Source: Methanobrevibacter sp.
Lineage (GTDB): Archaea; Methanobacteriota; Methanobacteria; Methanobacteriales; Methanobacteriaceae
DNA length: 64,000 bases
NCBI RefSeq assembly: GCF_030539875.1
Contig: NZ_JAUNXI010000006.1
Span: 1 to 64,000 of the forward strand
Direction: 5' to 3'
Below are positions 55,057 through 62,206 of this stretch, in pieces. The position numbers were made by a program, and so were the translations under genes. The notes under the pieces were generated by a model. It saw nothing but the letters and a program-made list of their open reading frames with translations. It made no database searches and was not told the DNA's origin. The stretch's first letter is position 1, and each line of letters opens with the position of its first letter.

Positions 55057-56166
55057 CTAAATGACATAGTCATCAGGGGTAAAACGCAATATAATTTCTC
55101 TAGAATTTCCTCTAACCCCTTTTCCTGTAAATTTAGTATCAATCAATCGTACAAATTCCAATTTATCCAAGGTTCGATTAAAAGAAGCGTAACTGGAACT
55201 TGTTTTTTCAATATACATTTCAGCCAATTCACCAGCTTTACAAACACCTTCCCATCCGGCAATCATCTTTAAAAGACTTTTCTCAGCATCATTTAATTTC
55301 TTTAGAGTTTCTGAAAAATCAACTGAAACCAATGAGTCGACGGCTTTGTCAAAATGTTCCTGTTTGATTTCACGGCTGGCTGATGCTTCTGCAAAATTGC
55401 CGCAGGATTTTAAAAGATTAATGCCTGTTCTTAAATCCCCGTTTTCATGAGTATACATTGCAACCTGTTCCAATATGTCATCTGAGATAACTCCAGGGAA
55501 AAATCCTGCTTTTGCCCTGTTTTTTAAAATATCTTCAATTTCAGGATATGTGTAAAGCGGAAAAACTATTTCCTGGGGAATAAATACAGTATTTACGTTT
55601 TTGTCAAATGCGTATTTGAATTCCAGATCAGAGAGTATTGCAAAAATAGCTGTTCTGACACCAGGATATTCCTCATATGCCCTCAGCATGTCATAAAACA
55701 CCTTATTGGCTGATTTTGAGTGGAACAAATAATTAACGTCATCAAGCGCAATAACAAGGGATTTGTTATCTTTCTGAAGATTCTGCATGATTTGGTCATA
55801 TATCCTTGAAAATGGAACTCCTGTTTCCGGTGGAAGATGGCCGAAAATCTTTTTGTAGATTTGTGAAAATATTCCGAAACGGGTTGTGTGAAGTTGGCAA
55901 TTGATATAAACGCAAACTACCTTTTCTGTGTTTTTTTCAACTAATTCAAATACTTTTCTAATGGCTGTTGTCTTTCCGGTTGCAGGAGAACCTAAAACAA
56001 CCGCATTTGAAGGCTGGCCTCCTTTCATGGCAGGCCTTATTGACATTGCCATTGCTTCCATTTGAGTGTCTCTGAAATTATAATCCTGAGGCACATAATC
56101 CGGATCAAAGGCGTTTATATTTTGAAAAAGGCTTTCATCATACATTAAAATATCTTCAATTCCCAT
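55057..56166 (-). CDS. Orc1/Cdc6-type replication initiator
   Basis: The 369-residue AAA+ protein has Walker A GSPATGKTTA (about 58-67), Walker B LVIALDDVNYL and a C-terminal winged helix (about 290-369, ending with LRFTPDDYVI). Methanobacteriales usually carry two; this may be the second. No obvious origin repeats flank it, and it directly follows mptE in the same direction (33 nt). It may be a regulator or back-up initiator. Confidence 0.88.
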   Translation of the reverse strand: MGIEDILMYDESLFQNINAFDPDYVPQDYNFRDTQMEAMAMSIRPAMKGGQPSNAVVLGSPATGKTTAIRKVFELVEKNTEKVVCVYINCQLHTTRFGIFSQIYKKIFGHLPPETGVPFSRIYDQIMQNLQKDNKSLVIALDDVNYLFHSKSANKVFYDMLRAYEEYPGVRTAIFAILSDLEFKYAFDKNVNTVFIPQEIVFPLYTYPEIEDILKNRAKAGFFPGVISDDILEQVAMYTHENGDLRTGINLLKSCGNFAEASASREIKQEHFDKAVDSLVSVDFSETLKKLNDAEKSLLKMIAGWEGVCKAGELAEMYIEKTSSSYASFNRTLDKLEFVRLIDTKFTGKGVRGNSREIILRFTPDDYVI

Positions 56167-57618: not shown

Positions 57619-57767
57619 GATACCGGCCTTAGCGTTTTTAGAAATTAAATTTGAAAATCCAGTTTATATTATATATTACAAAATATTTAAAAGCAATAAA
57701 AATTAAAAATCTAATTAGCTTTCAATAAGCTGATGTACAAATTATTTTTATAATGGAGGAAACTTTA

Positions 57768-58910
57768 ATGGATGAAACTTTATTAATGCTTCCGGGTCCA
57801 ACAACAGTGCACCCTAGAGTGCTTGCTGCAATGTCTAACGCTGTTGTTAACCATAGAGGAGCCAAATATGGAGAAATTTTAACAGAAACAAATAAATTAA
57901 TGTCTGATGTTTTCCAAACCTCTAATGACTCATACTTAGTAACAGGATCTGGAACTGCAGTAATGGAAGCGGGCGTAAGCAATACTGTTGCTTCCGGTGA
58001 AAAAATACTCAATGTTGTAGGGGGAAAATTCGGTGAACGTTTCATGAAAATAGCCAACACTCATGGAATCGACACTAAAGAGTTAGCAGTAGAGTGGGGA
58101 ACCGCTGTAACTCCTGAAGCTATTAAAGAAGCTTTGGATGCTGATGAAGATATTAAAGCAGTAACTGTAGTTCACAATGAAACCTCTACCGGAGTAGCTG
58201 CACCTATTGAGGAAATTGGTAAAGTAATGAAAAATTATGATGCGCTATATATCGTAGATACAGTATCTTCCCTTGGCGGAGATTATGTTGATGTGGAAAA
58301 GTTCGGAATCGACGTTTGCGTAACCGGTTCTCAGAAATGTATTGCAGCACCGCCGGGAATGGGCGCAATTACTTTAAGCGACGATGCATGGGCTGCTGCA
58401 GATAAAATCGACTCACCTACTTTCTACCTTGATATGAAAGCTGCAAGAAAAAGTGGAGATAAAGTGCCGCCTCAAACTCCTTATACTCCTTCAGTATCCT
58501 TAACTTATGCAATGAACGAAGCTTTGAAAATGATTGTTGAAGAAGGTCTTGAAGCAAGAGTTGCACGCCACCACAAAGCTGCTGAAGCAAGTGTGGCTGC
58601 TGTTAAAGCATTAGGTTTAGATTTATTTGCTGATGAGGCCGTCTCCTCTGCAACCGTAACTGCCGTTAAAATTCCAGAAGGAATTACCGACAGCGAATTT
58701 AGAGGAACTGTTCGTGACAAGTACGGTGTTGAATTGGCCGGAGGACAGGACCACCTGAAAGGAAATGTTTTCAGAATCGGACACATGGGAAATATTTCAT
58801 ACAAAGAGCTGACCCAGACTTTTGCAGCTATCGGTATGACTTTAAAAGGTTTAGGTGCAATTGAAGACGCAGGTGCCGGTGTGGCATCCATTGCAGAATC
58901 ATACTTATGA
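57768..58910 (+). CDS. class V aminotransferase (alanine-glyoxylate/serine-pyruvate type)
   Basis: The 380-residue PLP enzyme has LPGPTTVHPRVL (about 6-17), SGTAVMEAGVSN, DTVSSLGG (PLP Asp about 167) and the lysine in TGSQKCIAAPPGMG (about 190-203). Related enzymes act on glyoxylate, serine or phosphonopyruvate; methanogens may use it for serine or glycine metabolism. ATG at 57768 is set by GGAGG 8 nt upstream. It is followed by a strong terminator. Confidence 0.9.
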   Translation: MDETLLMLPGPTTVHPRVLAAMSNAVVNHRGAKYGEILTETNKLMSDVFQTSNDSYLVTGSGTAVMEAGVSNTVASGEKILNVVGGKFGERFMKIANTHGIDTKELAVEWGTAVTPEAIKEALDADEDIKAVTVVHNETSTGVAAPIEEIGKVMKNYDALYIVDTVSSLGGDYVDVEKFGIDVCVTGSQKCIAAPPGMGAITLSDDAWAAADKIDSPTFYLDMKAARKSGDKVPPQTPYTPSVSLTYAMNEALKMIVEEGLEARVARHHKAAEASVAAVKALGLDLFADEAVSSATVTAVKIPEGITDSEFRGTVRDKYGVELAGGQDHLKGNVFRIGHMGNISYKELTQTFAAIGMTLKGLGAIEDAGAGVASIAESYL

Positions 58911-58930: not shown

Positions 58931-59303
58931 AAACTGAATTTTTAGTAATATATTTTTTACATCTTCTTTTGTTATAAGTGATAAGTTACACTTGAAATGC
59001 ACCTCTTCAGACATCACCTTAAAAACTTATAAGTGAAAAGTTACACTTGAAATGGATGTCTCTAATTTTTGGACAGTATAAGTTATAAGTGAAAAGTTAC
59101 ACTTGAAATTTATGTCTTTAAAATAAAAAAAGTATTACAGAACATGCAGTCTTGATCTCAACATTTAATAAGCATAGCCATCACAGCATTTGAGGTAATG
59201 GAAAAATCAATGCTGAAAAATTACACCTGCCGATTTCTATGAAAATTGAAAAATATTTTAAATATTAAAAAACAAAGTTAAACCATTATTAGGATGTGAA
59301 AAT
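58931..59303. other. intergenic region with three repeats
   Basis: About 370 nt between the aminotransferase terminator and the GerW-family gene. The middle holds three copies of a 27-bp repeat (58972-59109). The right part (59110-59303) is AT-rich and holds the promoter of the GerW operon. No gene is visible. Confidence 0.6.
58972..59109 (+). repeat. three 27-bp direct repeats
   Basis: Unit TTATAAGTGAAAAGTTACAC then TTGAAAT, at 58972-58998 (one base differs: GATAAG), 59027-59053 and 59083-59109. Periods are 55 and 56 bp. Each holds AAGTG and CACTT as an inverted pair separated by 8 nt. The bases after copies 2 and 3 are also alike (ATGTCT). Confidence 0.85.
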
Positions 59304-59717
59304 ATGTCTGAAAATATCAAAACAACTGTAGAAGAATTACGCAAACTTATTAATGTAGACAATGTAATCGGCGAACCTATCGAAACCGAAGATAAAGTCC
59401 TCATTCCAGTAATGAGAATGGGAGTAGGATTTGGAGTTGGAGAAAAGATAATAGGAAGTGAAGGCGGTGCTGCAGGTGCAGGTGCTGGTGTCGAACCGAT
59501 TTCAATGGTGCTGATTCCTAAAAAAGGAACTGACAGCGAAGGTGTCCGCGTACTTAACTTAAGCAAAGGAAGTGACACAAACAAGGCATTGTCCGATTTC
59601 AGCTTGCTTGTAAGTGACTTGATTAAAAAATATGTGGATTCAAAAGAGGAAAATAACTACGACGAATCAGAATATATTGAACCAGAATTTTCCACAACCG
59701 ACGATAAAGAAGAATAA
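59304..59717 (+). CDS. GerW/YtfJ-family protein
   Basis: The 137-residue protein has a Gly/Ala-rich core (MGVGFGVGEKIIGSEGG and AAGAGAGVEPISMVLIP, about 37-71), as in the Bacillus spore protein YtfJ/GerW family. The C-terminal tail is acidic. In Bacillus the neighbouring gene is a DUF2953 protein, and the same is found here. GGATGTGAAAAT precedes the ATG. Role in this non-sporulating archaeon is unknown. Confidence 0.85.
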   Translation: MSENIKTTVEELRKLINVDNVIGEPIETEDKVLIPVMRMGVGFGVGEKIIGSEGGAAGAGAGVEPISMVLIPKKGTDSEGVRVLNLSKGSDTNKALSDFSLLVSDLIKKYVDSKEENNYDESEYIEPEFSTTDDKEE

Positions 59718-59719
59718 AC

Positions 59720-60280
59720 ATGTCAGACATCCTATTGATGATTATTTTTATAATCATCCTCTTCATCATCATACTGCTTTTTATTGGAGTTAAGATAGCT
59801 ATAATTTACGATAAGACAGGCAGTAACTTTAAGGGATGTTTAGACATATACGTTTTAAGAAAAATCAAAGTTTATTCAACCAGATTTCCATCATCCGAGA
59901 AAAAAGAAGACGAAGAAGAGAAAGGCGAAACCGAAATACTCGAACTGGCCAAACCCTGTTTTGAAGATTTTAAAATATTTTTAAAATCCTTTGTAAAATG
60001 CATCCGTGTGGAAAAGCTTGAAAACCATCTTGTTTTTGGTCTTGACTCCTACGTCGAGACTGCAAAATATATTGGCTACATCTGGGGATTGCTTGTAATT
60101 GTAAATGAAGCTCATGAAAATGCCATGCTGAGTGCTGAACCATCATTTAATGGAAGCGTTTTTGATTTAAACGGAGACAACGAACTTGAGATAAATCTCC
60201 TGAAATTGATTCCGCCAACTTTAAGACTGATGTCTAAAAAAGAGGTTCAAGCGTTGATTAGAGGTGTTATACATGGATAA
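59720..60280 (+). CDS. DUF2953 membrane protein (YtfI-like)
   Basis: A 186-residue protein. The first 25 residues form a transmembrane helix (LLMIIFIIILFIIILLFIGV), followed by a soluble domain (about 30-186) with FEDFKIFLKSF and GLDSYVETAKYIGYIWGLL, LRLMSKKEVQALIRGV at the end. Start is 2 nt after the stop of the GerW gene, so they are one operon. Confidence 0.75.
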   Translation: MSDILLMIIFIIILFIIILLFIGVKIAIIYDKTGSNFKGCLDIYVLRKIKVYSTRFPSSEKKEDEEEKGETEILELAKPCFEDFKIFLKSFVKCIRVEKLENHLVFGLDSYVETAKYIGYIWGLLVIVNEAHENAMLSAEPSFNGSVFDLNGDNELEINLLKLIPPTLRLMSKKEVQALIRGVIHG

Positions 60281-60533
60281 ACATGTCAGGGACTTTATTT
60301 GCGATAAGGCAGACATCTGCATAACATCAGAATATAGTTTTCGCGACATCTGCGGATTTACATTTGCATTTAAAACCGAAATTGTCCATATAAAAAACCG
60401 GATCAGCTCTGCATCAGCCGCTCCTGTTGGAATTATCTATAAAGAGAATAACGAATTTTATTTAGCCCCTCTTGCTAAAAAAGTAAACGTTAGCGAAGTC
60501 ATCATGCATTATGTTAAATACCACATGGATTGA
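60273..60533 (+). CDS. small protein of unknown function, third gene of the GerW operon
   Basis: An 86-residue protein starting MDKHVRDFICDKADIC, overlapping the DUF2953 gene by 8 nt, with GAGGTG upstream of the ATG (an alternative GTG lies 9 nt earlier). Three Cys and GFTFAFKTEIVHIKNR are visible. No known domain. The tight overlap suggests joint function with the two upstream genes. Confidence 0.65.
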   Translation: MDKHVRDFICDKADICITSEYSFRDICGFTFAFKTEIVHIKNRISSASAAPVGIIYKENNEFYLAPLAKKVNVSEVIMHYVKYHMD

Positions 60534-60671: not shown

Positions 60672-60727
60672 TAACTAGTAAAAAAATATTTACCAGTATT
60701 TATAAATAACTAGTAAAAAAATATTTA
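60672..60727 (+). repeat. two 21-bp direct repeats before the ATPase gene
   Basis: TAACTAGTAAAAAAATATTT and one more A, at 60672-60692 and 60707-60727 (period 35 bp), each with the palindrome ACTAGT. They lie about 45-100 nt before the ATG. The second is next to TTTATAAATATA, a likely TATA box. A candidate operator pair. Confidence 0.75.
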
Positions 60728-60769
60728 TAAATATAATCCACATACCAGCAAATGTCAGAGGTGAAAAAA

Positions 60770-62206
60770 ATGAATGATGCATTAGCAATCCACATCCAAA
60801 ATCAAGTTTTAATAAGGCCAGGCAAATTAAATGAAGATTTGAAATACAACAATAAAACATTTCGCCACAGACAAGATTACTATGAAATAATCAGATATGT
60901 TGATGACTATCTAAACGGGAAAACCAACAACAGATACTTAGTTTTACCAGGAATAAGAGGTGTTGGAAAATCCACAATACTATATCAGATATATGAATAT
61001 CTCCTAAAAGAAAAAAATATCAGCCAGACAAATATCATATACATAACAGGAGATAACCTGAAAAGAATGTCAAACAGCCCAATTATGGACGGAATAACAA
61101 CATATCTCGACATATTTCACAATGCAACAATCGAAACTGTAGGAGAACCAGTATTTTTATTAATTGATGAAGCGCAGTATGATAAGGATTGGTCAAATAC
61201 AGGAAAAATCATCTTTGATTCGACAAAAAACATATTTATGATTTTTAGCGGCTCATCAGCATTAGAACTTTCCTACAATGCAGATTCTGCAAGAAGATTA
61301 TTAAAAATCCCTGTTCTGCCTCTAAATTATTCCCAGCATTTGAAATTAAAATATGATTATTTTAAAAACGATATTTCAAAATCCATTACTGACTTAATTT
61401 TTGAGAAGAAAATCCCTGAGGACAATCTGGAAAGCAAAATTCTCAAAATCTATTCTAACTTAAAGGATTATGACATTAAAGAATGGGAAAATTTCATACA
61501 GTATGGAGGATTTCCATCATCATTCAATCAGAAACAGCACGAAATAACAAAAACAGTTACAGACATCATAGAAAGAGTAATAACAGTAGATTTAGAAAAT
61601 ATCAAAGGAATAAATGGGCAAACAGAATACCTTGCATTCCAGCTGTTATATTTCTTTGCTCTTCAAAATCCCGGTGAAATCTCAAAAGGATCAATGGCCA
61701 ACCACCTTGATTCAAATAAAATGACAATAAACAAGATTTTGGAACTGCTTGAAAAAACACAGCTGATTTTCCATGTCGAACCCTTTACTTCATCTGCTAA
61801 AAGAACTACAAAATCCCATAAATATTACTTTGCAACATCCAGCCTGAAGCATATACTGTCTGCAAATCTCGGCAACGCAAATCTCGAAGCAAAAGAAGCA
61901 TACATGGGCAAATTACTTGAAAACTTTGTTGCTTCAAGTTTTTTTAATCTTAAAAACAGAAGCGATGTGATGTATAACATATATTACGACACAAATAAGA
62001 AAAATGTTGATTTTTTAATTCAGAAAGGATTAAACACGCCGATTCCGATTGAAGTGAGTTTTGGAAAAAAAGACAAAAGCCAGATTAAAACTGCAATGAG
62101 AAAGTACAAATCAGACTACGGCATAATCATCTCAAATACAACAAAAAACATTTTAAAGGAAGACAATATTATTTATCTGCCTCCCCAAACATTTTCATTC
62201 ATGTGA
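60770..62206 (+). CDS. AAA+ ATPase with DUF4143-type C-terminus
   Basis: The 478-residue protein has Walker A GIRGVGKST (about 62-70), Walker B FLLIDEAQ and SGSSALELS, then a winged-helix-like region and the C-terminal DUF4143 part with VDFLIQ and IPIEVSFGK, a PD-(D/E)xK-like pattern. The ATG is set by GAGGTG 6 nt upstream. Such ATPases are common and mobile in archaea; function unknown. The end overlaps the convergent acetolactate-synthase-like gene by 12 nt. Confidence 0.85.
   Translation: MNDALAIHIQNQVLIRPGKLNEDLKYNNKTFRHRQDYYEIIRYVDDYLNGKTNNRYLVLPGIRGVGKSTILYQIYEYLLKEKNISQTNIIYITGDNLKRMSNSPIMDGITTYLDIFHNATIETVGEPVFLLIDEAQYDKDWSNTGKIIFDSTKNIFMIFSGSSALELSYNADSARRLLKIPVLPLNYSQHLKLKYDYFKNDISKSITDLIFEKKIPEDNLESKILKIYSNLKDYDIKEWENFIQYGGFPSSFNQKQHEITKTVTDIIERVITVDLENIKGINGQTEYLAFQLLYFFALQNPGEISKGSMANHLDSNKMTINKILELLEKTQLIFHVEPFTSSAKRTTKSHKYYFATSSLKHILSANLGNANLEAKEAYMGKLLENFVASSFFNLKNRSDVMYNIYYDTNKKNVDFLIQKGLNTPIPIEVSFGKKDKSQIKTAMRKYKSDYGIIISNTTKNILKEDNIIYLPPQTFSFM

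Follow-up and report, generated by a model that had tools for sequence, protein, structure and literature searches.

What is the gene of a GerW protein, a family currently filed among the spore proteins with an unknown role, doing in a methanogen for which we know of no sporulation, and how might it be controlled there? In the window, by which we mean the whole 64,000-nucleotide stretch of Methanobrevibacter DNA analysed here, gerW is followed by a DUF2953 gene and a small third gene. Our reading as a whole, to which we give a probability of roughly 0.45, is that the operon encodes a membrane-tethered complex of GerW, DUF2953 and a GerW-like third protein, and that it would be bound by the replication initiator Orc1/Cdc6.

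The three co-directional open reading frames of the preliminary description were confirmed, the third one with alternative starts at 60264 and 60273 (Table 1). The ATG at 60273, which is better placed behind AGAGGTG than the GTG at 60264, appears from the sequence to be the likelier start; counted from this ATG, the third gene overlaps the DUF2953 gene by 8 bp. Further downstream, an ATPase gene (AAA_14/DUF4143) lies at 60752-62206 of the window, and before its start two 22-bp-like AT-rich repeats (ACTAGTAAAAAAATATTTA...) were seen at about 60676-60731.

Table 1. Features of the gerW region, in window coordinates.
Feature	Position	Strand	Basis
orc1/cdc6-2 of 369 aa, some 2.8 kb upstream of the array	55057..56166	-	NF001624 E 9.1e-161; PF22703 Cdc6_lid 3.8e-16; synteny
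class-V aminotransferase, gene preceding the array (context)	57753..58910	+	PF00266 E 3.2e-30; next gene 5' of gerW in most close relatives
three origin-recognition-box-like repeats, one orientation, 55 and 56 bp apart	58969..59121	+	conserved in 28 of 30 close relatives
gerW, GerW/YtfJ-family protein, 137 aa, soluble; two long strands with a glycine-rich loop between them (predicted)	59304..59717	+	PF09579, TIGR02874, model
DUF2953 gene, 186 aa; a single membrane helix at the N-terminus, followed by a probably cytoplasmic domain	59720..60280	+	PF11167, matches of relatives, hydropathy and charge
third gene, 86 aa from the ATG, with the GTG at 60264 as a possible start; putative diverged GerW-fold without the glycine-rich loop	60273..60533	+	conserved place, hhalign, model

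The window GerW scores above the cut-off of PF09579 (E 2.4e-10; 41 bits, cut-off 25). All 46 GerW proteins that were scanned also match the sporulation equivalog TIGR02874 (best E 6.7e-17), the window protein with 43.9 bits, below the equivalog cut-off of 116.3. That the neighbouring gene encodes a DUF2953 protein was borne out by profile, marginally in the window protein itself, which stays under the PF11167 cut-off of 22 in hmmscan (E 0.00075, 20.0 bits) and passes it in the six-frame search (22.2 bits), and firmly in its relatives, where 39 out of 45 DUF2953 proteins match (best E 3.5e-11). In the six-frame search PF11167 is found above cut-off in 91 of 151 genomes. Hydropathy gives a single N-terminal membrane helix in 71 of 72 DUF2953 sequences, so that the general function at the membrane considered in the preliminary description is plausible. 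Lysine and arginine residues are more numerous after this helix than before it in 61 of the 72, equal in nine and fewer in two; following the positive-inside rule, the DUF2953 domain would therefore be located in the cytoplasm together with GerW and the third protein. Sequence searches among solved structures gave no convincing match for GerW or DUF2953.

The distribution of the module in the archaeal family of the window is broad. Of the 138 family genomes, 119 encode GerW, among them 72 of the 78 good-quality ones; the protein occurs in 14 of the 17 genera, and the module also in two further families of the order. Seventy loci were opened for the three genes, and 65 of them have all three in order. 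Regarding the other five, the DUF2953 frame is broken in L118 with the third gene present, three loci of genus g13 (L123, L125, L126) have no third gene adjoining DUF2953, and L127 stops at a contig edge. Three further g13 loci (L187-L189) likewise lack the third gene, so that all six g13 genomes are affected. A third-gene profile built from 37 proteins, that of the window included, finds a match at E 1 or below in 131 of 151 genomes; ten of these matches are weaker than 1e-4, which leaves 121 of 151. At E below 1e-4 the family contributes 112 of its 138 genomes, two of them (G006, where the match is located at the end of its contig, and G110) without a GerW match. The question raised earlier, whether the third gene is always present, can thus be answered with 110 of the 119 GerW-bearing family genomes at this threshold, and the gene is not absent in the relatives. 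The nine GerW-bearing genomes without it are the six from g13 together with G054, G117 and G119, the last two having GerW at a contig edge. Outside the family, L180 (family f2) also has the third gene after DUF2953, and so does family f3, there as open reading frames in L184 and L185 and by eye in the translated frames of L181-L183 and L186. Judged by this distribution over the genomes, the third gene is an almost invariable part of the module, and one genus has lost it.

The region before gerW holds a further feature that, like the orc1/cdc6-2 gene, is absent from the preliminary description. Within the 393 bp between the end of the aminotransferase gene (58910) and gerW, three ATAAGTGAAAAGTTACACTTGAAAT-like repeats carry the core TTACACTTGAAA at 58986-58997, 59041-59052 and 59097-59108, and no ATAAGTGAAAAGTTACACTTGAAAT-like repeat was found elsewhere in the genome with up to three mismatches. 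We counted exact TTACACTTGAAA within 500 bp before gerW in the 30 loci of close relatives (L002-L031): at least one copy is present in 28 of them and at least two in 27, with up to six copies, always in one orientation, and L009 and L026 have no exact copy in this interval. The spacing is regular. Among 73 spacings in the relatives 31 measure 54 bp and 19 measure 53 bp, and 56 fall between 52 and 56 bp. In the 40 other loci (33 from other genera and seven from remoter congeners) no array was found; allowing two mismatches, one site occurs in L116 and two reversed ones in L130, and none in the others. Since two of 30 close relatives and these 40 loci lack the array, it is not essential to the module. 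It was also considered as a CRISPR and dropped, as its copies drift, share the box of oriC and occupy one place in the genome.

The boxes resemble TTTACACTTGAAA, which we take to be the mini-ORB of M. thermautotrophicus, and because of this likeness the orc1/cdc6 genes were searched for; a literature search with the string TTTACACTTGAAA found no relevant paper. The initiator gene orc1/cdc6-1 (387 aa, Cdc6_C E 8.8e-25) is located on contig C5, and upstream of it, at oriC, the same box is present in both directions. Of 13 exact cores in the genome, three lie at oriC and three at gerW, and these two places are the only ones with clusters of at least two cores within 300 bp. Clusters at oriC and gerW alone were found in all seven array-bearing genomes that were listed in full (that of the window, G036, G043, G057, G061, G073 and G097); in G037, G039 and G042 the gerW array is absent. 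The core pattern read backwards, as a control, matches nowhere in the genome of the window and zero to two times per strand in the others.

The likeness extends beyond the core. We compared 101 copies before gerW with 46 at oriC from eight genomes, the oriC copies being allowed one mismatch in the core, and the bases behind the core played no part in picking the copies. In the gerW and oriC copies, respectively, A stands at +15 in 96 and 85%, T at +18 in 95 and 96%, C at +19 in 89 and 87% and T at +20 in 89 and 93%, and the ATG/ACC alternatives behind the core are likewise common to both. Before the core, gerW copies carry TTATAAGTGAAAA, which is absent from those at oriC. In the genome of the window itself, the gerW boxes are identical to the oriC boxes in the core and the following bases. 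As gerW lies 202 kb (G036) and 231 kb (G043) from orc1/cdc6-1 where both are on one contig, the array is outside oriC.

As a separate observation, in several genomes oriC is flanked on both sides by single origin boxes at a distance of about 10 kb (contig C5 37816, 58211 and 80238 in the genome of the window, C1 391860 and 412033 in G036, C1 30257 and 51082 in G043).

With boxes that match those of the origin, we consider it probable that the Orc1/Cdc6 encoded beside oriC binds the gerW array. The 53-54 bp period corresponds to about five helical turns, which would place the initiator molecules along the same face of the promoter DNA. In the Methanobrevibacter clade of the window, this array would have been gained in the promoter region of the operon, and through binding, either operon expression or the level of free initiator could be linked to the replication cycle. 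That the binding regulates the gerW operon is a tentative proposal, which we nevertheless rank first among the readings of the array, followed by titration and, in third place, a second origin.

Titration would mean that the array is a site where Orc1/Cdc6 is sequestered or the chromosome organised, its place before gerW being incidental; in bacteria datA is a comparable site for DnaA. The copy number, which varies from one to six while the regular spacing stays, and the single boxes on either side of oriC would suit such a site. However, 28 of 30 close relatives keep the array in the intergenic stretch preceding gerW, L040/L012 even with a gene inserted between the aminotransferase gene and the array, and this speaks rather for a promoter element. 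We therefore regard titration as unlikely, though it is the closest competitor of operon regulation.

The third reading starts from orc1/cdc6-2, which is 26% identical to the initiator. The array could be a second or dormant replication origin linked to this nearby gene, with the operon unconnected: the boxes are as at oriC, orc1/cdc6-2 is 2.8 kb off, and orc1/cdc6 genes often adjoin origins, as stated in PMC3984812. Against this, the gerW boxes point in one direction whereas those at oriC point in both, and the whole 64 kb window has no inverted box with one mismatch or less; the layout of a replication origin, with both orientations flanking an AT-rich stretch, was thus not found at gerW. 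The GC skew, followed in 2 kb steps, also has no lasting sign change near 59 kb, a position near the end of the window. Furthermore, orc1/cdc6-2 has no Cdc6_C match at E 0.001, and G037, G039, G065 and G101 have the gene beside gerW and no array. Since orc1/cdc6-2 is found near gerW in such array-less genomes too, and its place there is partly kept in genera g6 and g9, this neighbourhood is older than the array. Especially because of the single orientation and the missing skew change we place a second origin lower, as a rather improbable reading, and keep to Orc1/Cdc6 control of the operon as the preferred one.

What kind of protein does the third gene encode? The preliminary description saw no known domain in it, which holds for Pfam and NCBIfam, where the window protein matches no family, but not for profile comparison and predicted structure, which make it a relative of the GerW fold. 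Spore_YtfJ (PF09579) is not among the Pfam families matched by any of 65 relatives of the third protein, nor was it found in the sets of ten and four third proteins scanned apart (one of the four being a misplaced reference), and the solved structures gave nothing convincing. In hhalign, 37 third proteins, which we had picked for diversity, align with 46 GerW proteins at 70.3% probability (E 4e-5), in an alignment that spans 64 columns and has the expected register, whereas all 65, with one genus dominant, reach only 1.3% (E 0.039); the comparison with DUF2953 gives 0.14%. The third-gene profile brings 38 of 46 GerW proteins below E 1, but none of 920 shuffled sequences and none of 45 DUF2953 proteins. 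In the reverse direction, three third proteins out of 69 reach an E below 1 with the GerW profile (Z 10,000), and none of 1380 shuffled sequences does. The early-branching third proteins L180 and L122 score with E 3.5e-4, the best value, and 0.015, and have kept the GerW-like stretch IIGKPIKIDDRTLYPI; in L180 IIGKPIKIDDRTLYPI...IHPIAIVITEP corresponds to VIGEPIETEDKVLIPV...VEPISMVLIPK of GerW.

The AlphaFold2 model of the window third protein (pLDDT 91.1) consists of helix 3-12, strands 15-26, 29-40, 43-58 and 61-66 and helix 73-85. Its order of helix, four strands and helix is common to the GerW model, which at pLDDT 65.1 is of low confidence (helix 2-16, strands 21-22, 26-27, 31-47, 55-72 and 82-85, helix 93-114). 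At the site of the glycine-rich loop of GerW, between the two long strands, the third-protein model has a tight turn, and no such loop was found in the 37-row alignment of third proteins. Foldseek and VIA-align searches with both models gave no fold family (best E 0.16; best VIA-align Z 5.3, to SpoVG and not significant, and 4.3), an absence that excludes nothing.

Taken from sequence profiles and models, the third protein very probably has the GerW fold, and an old, diverged duplicate of GerW is the most likely origin. Its resemblance to GerW could instead have arisen by convergence of two short beta-rich proteins that are otherwise unrelated, as the lacking direct Pfam match and the weak hhalign result with the full set would allow; but L180 and L122 keep IIGKPIKIDDRTLYPI and score with the GerW profile where shuffled controls do not, and the predicted order of elements is the same, which makes convergence improbable. 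For an operon so tight and conserved, the simplest reading is that DUF2953 tethers an assembly of two GerW-type proteins to the membrane, and we hold such a complex of the three proteins to be slightly favoured. In it DUF2953 would serve as the anchor, crossing the membrane once and keeping its domain in the cytoplasm. On this anchor GerW and the third protein would probably form a mixed beta-sheet assembly, in which GerW would contribute the glycine-rich loop and the third protein, having no loop, would be a partner or cap. The operon would then represent a GerW module of general, non-spore use.

Regarding other organisms, a tblastn search of a plasmid collection brought up nine alphaproteobacterial records with GerW. 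Four of these were opened: three (L190, L194, L191) have the order GerW, DUF2953 and an overlapping gene of 82-89 aa, and in the fourth (L193) the module is degraded. The alphaproteobacterial GerW and DUF2953 proteins match the archaeal profiles with up to 76.3 and 31.2 bits, and the bacterial third proteins show no significant match to the archaeal third-gene and GerW profiles (best hhalign P 0.11, in the right register). On the Sulfitobacter plasmid L191, genes of an F-type ATP synthase are found a few genes from the module. A haloarchaeal plasmid carries GerW alone, and none was found in phages or viral contigs. Used as controls, the genomes of B. subtilis and Methanosarcina acetivorans gave matches to both GerW and DUF2953. 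Together with the occurrence of GerW in most genomes of the archaeal family, the three-gene order in non-sporulating Alphaproteobacteria agrees with the earlier view that the module is not tied to sporulation.

The earlier statement that the gene order is as in Bacillus, on the other hand, is not supported. The three clostridial loci that could be reached, all from the plasmid collection, have the reverse order, DUF2953 then GerW, and no third gene. In Monoglobus and Pusillibacter this pair is located after scpA-scpB; the Subdoligranulum locus is unannotated and its DUF2953 match is weak (0.036). For B. subtilis we assume the order ytfI-ytfJ, for which no literature source was found. The E. 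coli genes named ytfI and ytfJ are other genes.

Trees were calculated for GerW (44 and 43 rows) and DUF2953 (37 rows), each with just five or six non-methanogen rows, drawn from three sequences of Clostridia, two or three of Alphaproteobacteria and one of a haloarchaeon. In the GerW trees the genera stay together with the exception of g12, beside which the three clostridial rows stand. A tree constrained to a single methanogen clade is 20.2 log units worse (p-AU 0.0735), and for one with g12 kept together p-AU is 0.334. In the DUF2953 tree bacteria and methanogens separate at 93/94, with g12 as one clade. With their few bacterial rows, these trees do not support the recent gene transfer from Firmicutes into the lineage of the window that had been put forward. 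In the g12 loci L127-L137, we observed that GerW looks clostridial and DUF2953 does not, possibly by an older exchange that involved g12 or by convergence. Arrival of the operon in methanogens from Firmicutes, for which the three clostridial GerW rows beside g12 would speak, is very improbable given the opposite order and missing third gene in the clostridial loci, the occurrence of the module in 14 of 17 genera of the family and two further families of the order, and the separation of methanogen and bacterial DUF2953 at 93/94.

The GerW and DUF2953 families and their presence in archaea are already known. Literature searches on GerW in archaea, on DUF2953 and on Methanobrevibacter origins, judged from the search listings, found nothing on the operon or on boxes before gerW; within those searches, neither the GerW-fold third subunit nor the origin-box array before the operon was found. 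If the module works in archaea and Alphaproteobacteria that are free of spores, it has a general basic function, which can be studied in the absence of sporulation. A nameless third open reading frame would become a second GerW-fold subunit. If Orc1/Cdc6 binds the array, an archaeal replication initiator would sit in a promoter region at an array of its own origin boxes, which would also be a first clue to the job of the GerW module. The origin boxes before gerW hint at a link to the cell cycle. It would be a long step further, and a quite doubtful one, to see in the module an ancient chromosome-handling machine at the cytoplasmic membrane, later adopted by spore-formers, controlled by Orc1/Cdc6 in Methanobrevibacter and in its clostridial form part of the scpA-scpB chromosome-segregation operon.

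Compared with known systems, the window GerW shares with GerW/YtfJ of spore-formers (PF09579, TIGR02874) a score over the PF09579 cut-off, the glycine-rich loop and the conserved xPI/V motif, but it stays far below the TIGR02874 equivalog cut-off and has no sporulation context. In Bacillus, GerW is produced only in the forespore and has no role in germination, according to PMC4366231. The clostridial scpA-scpB-DUF2953-gerW cluster has the two families side by side and a DUF2953 with an N-terminal membrane helix, but differs in its reversed order, the missing third gene and a following gene for a carboxypeptidase, amidase or pseudouridine synthase. Closer is the plasmid cluster of Leisingera and Sulfitobacter, with the same order and a small third gene overlapping the DUF2953 gene, although its third protein has no significant profile similarity to the archaeal one. 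The array resembles the archaeal mini-ORB, the box bound by Orc1/Cdc6, in that core and following bases are as at oriC, and differs in the single direction, the 53-54 bp period, the gerW-specific TTATAAGTGAAAA and the distance from oriC. Finally, PMC9738581 describes the Sulfolobus Orc1 paralogue Orc1-2 as a regulator of promoters, and thus an Orc1-family protein at promoters of non-replication genes; yet Orc1-2 is described there as binding an ANTTTC motif and not ORBs, while the boxes before gerW are those of the initiator.
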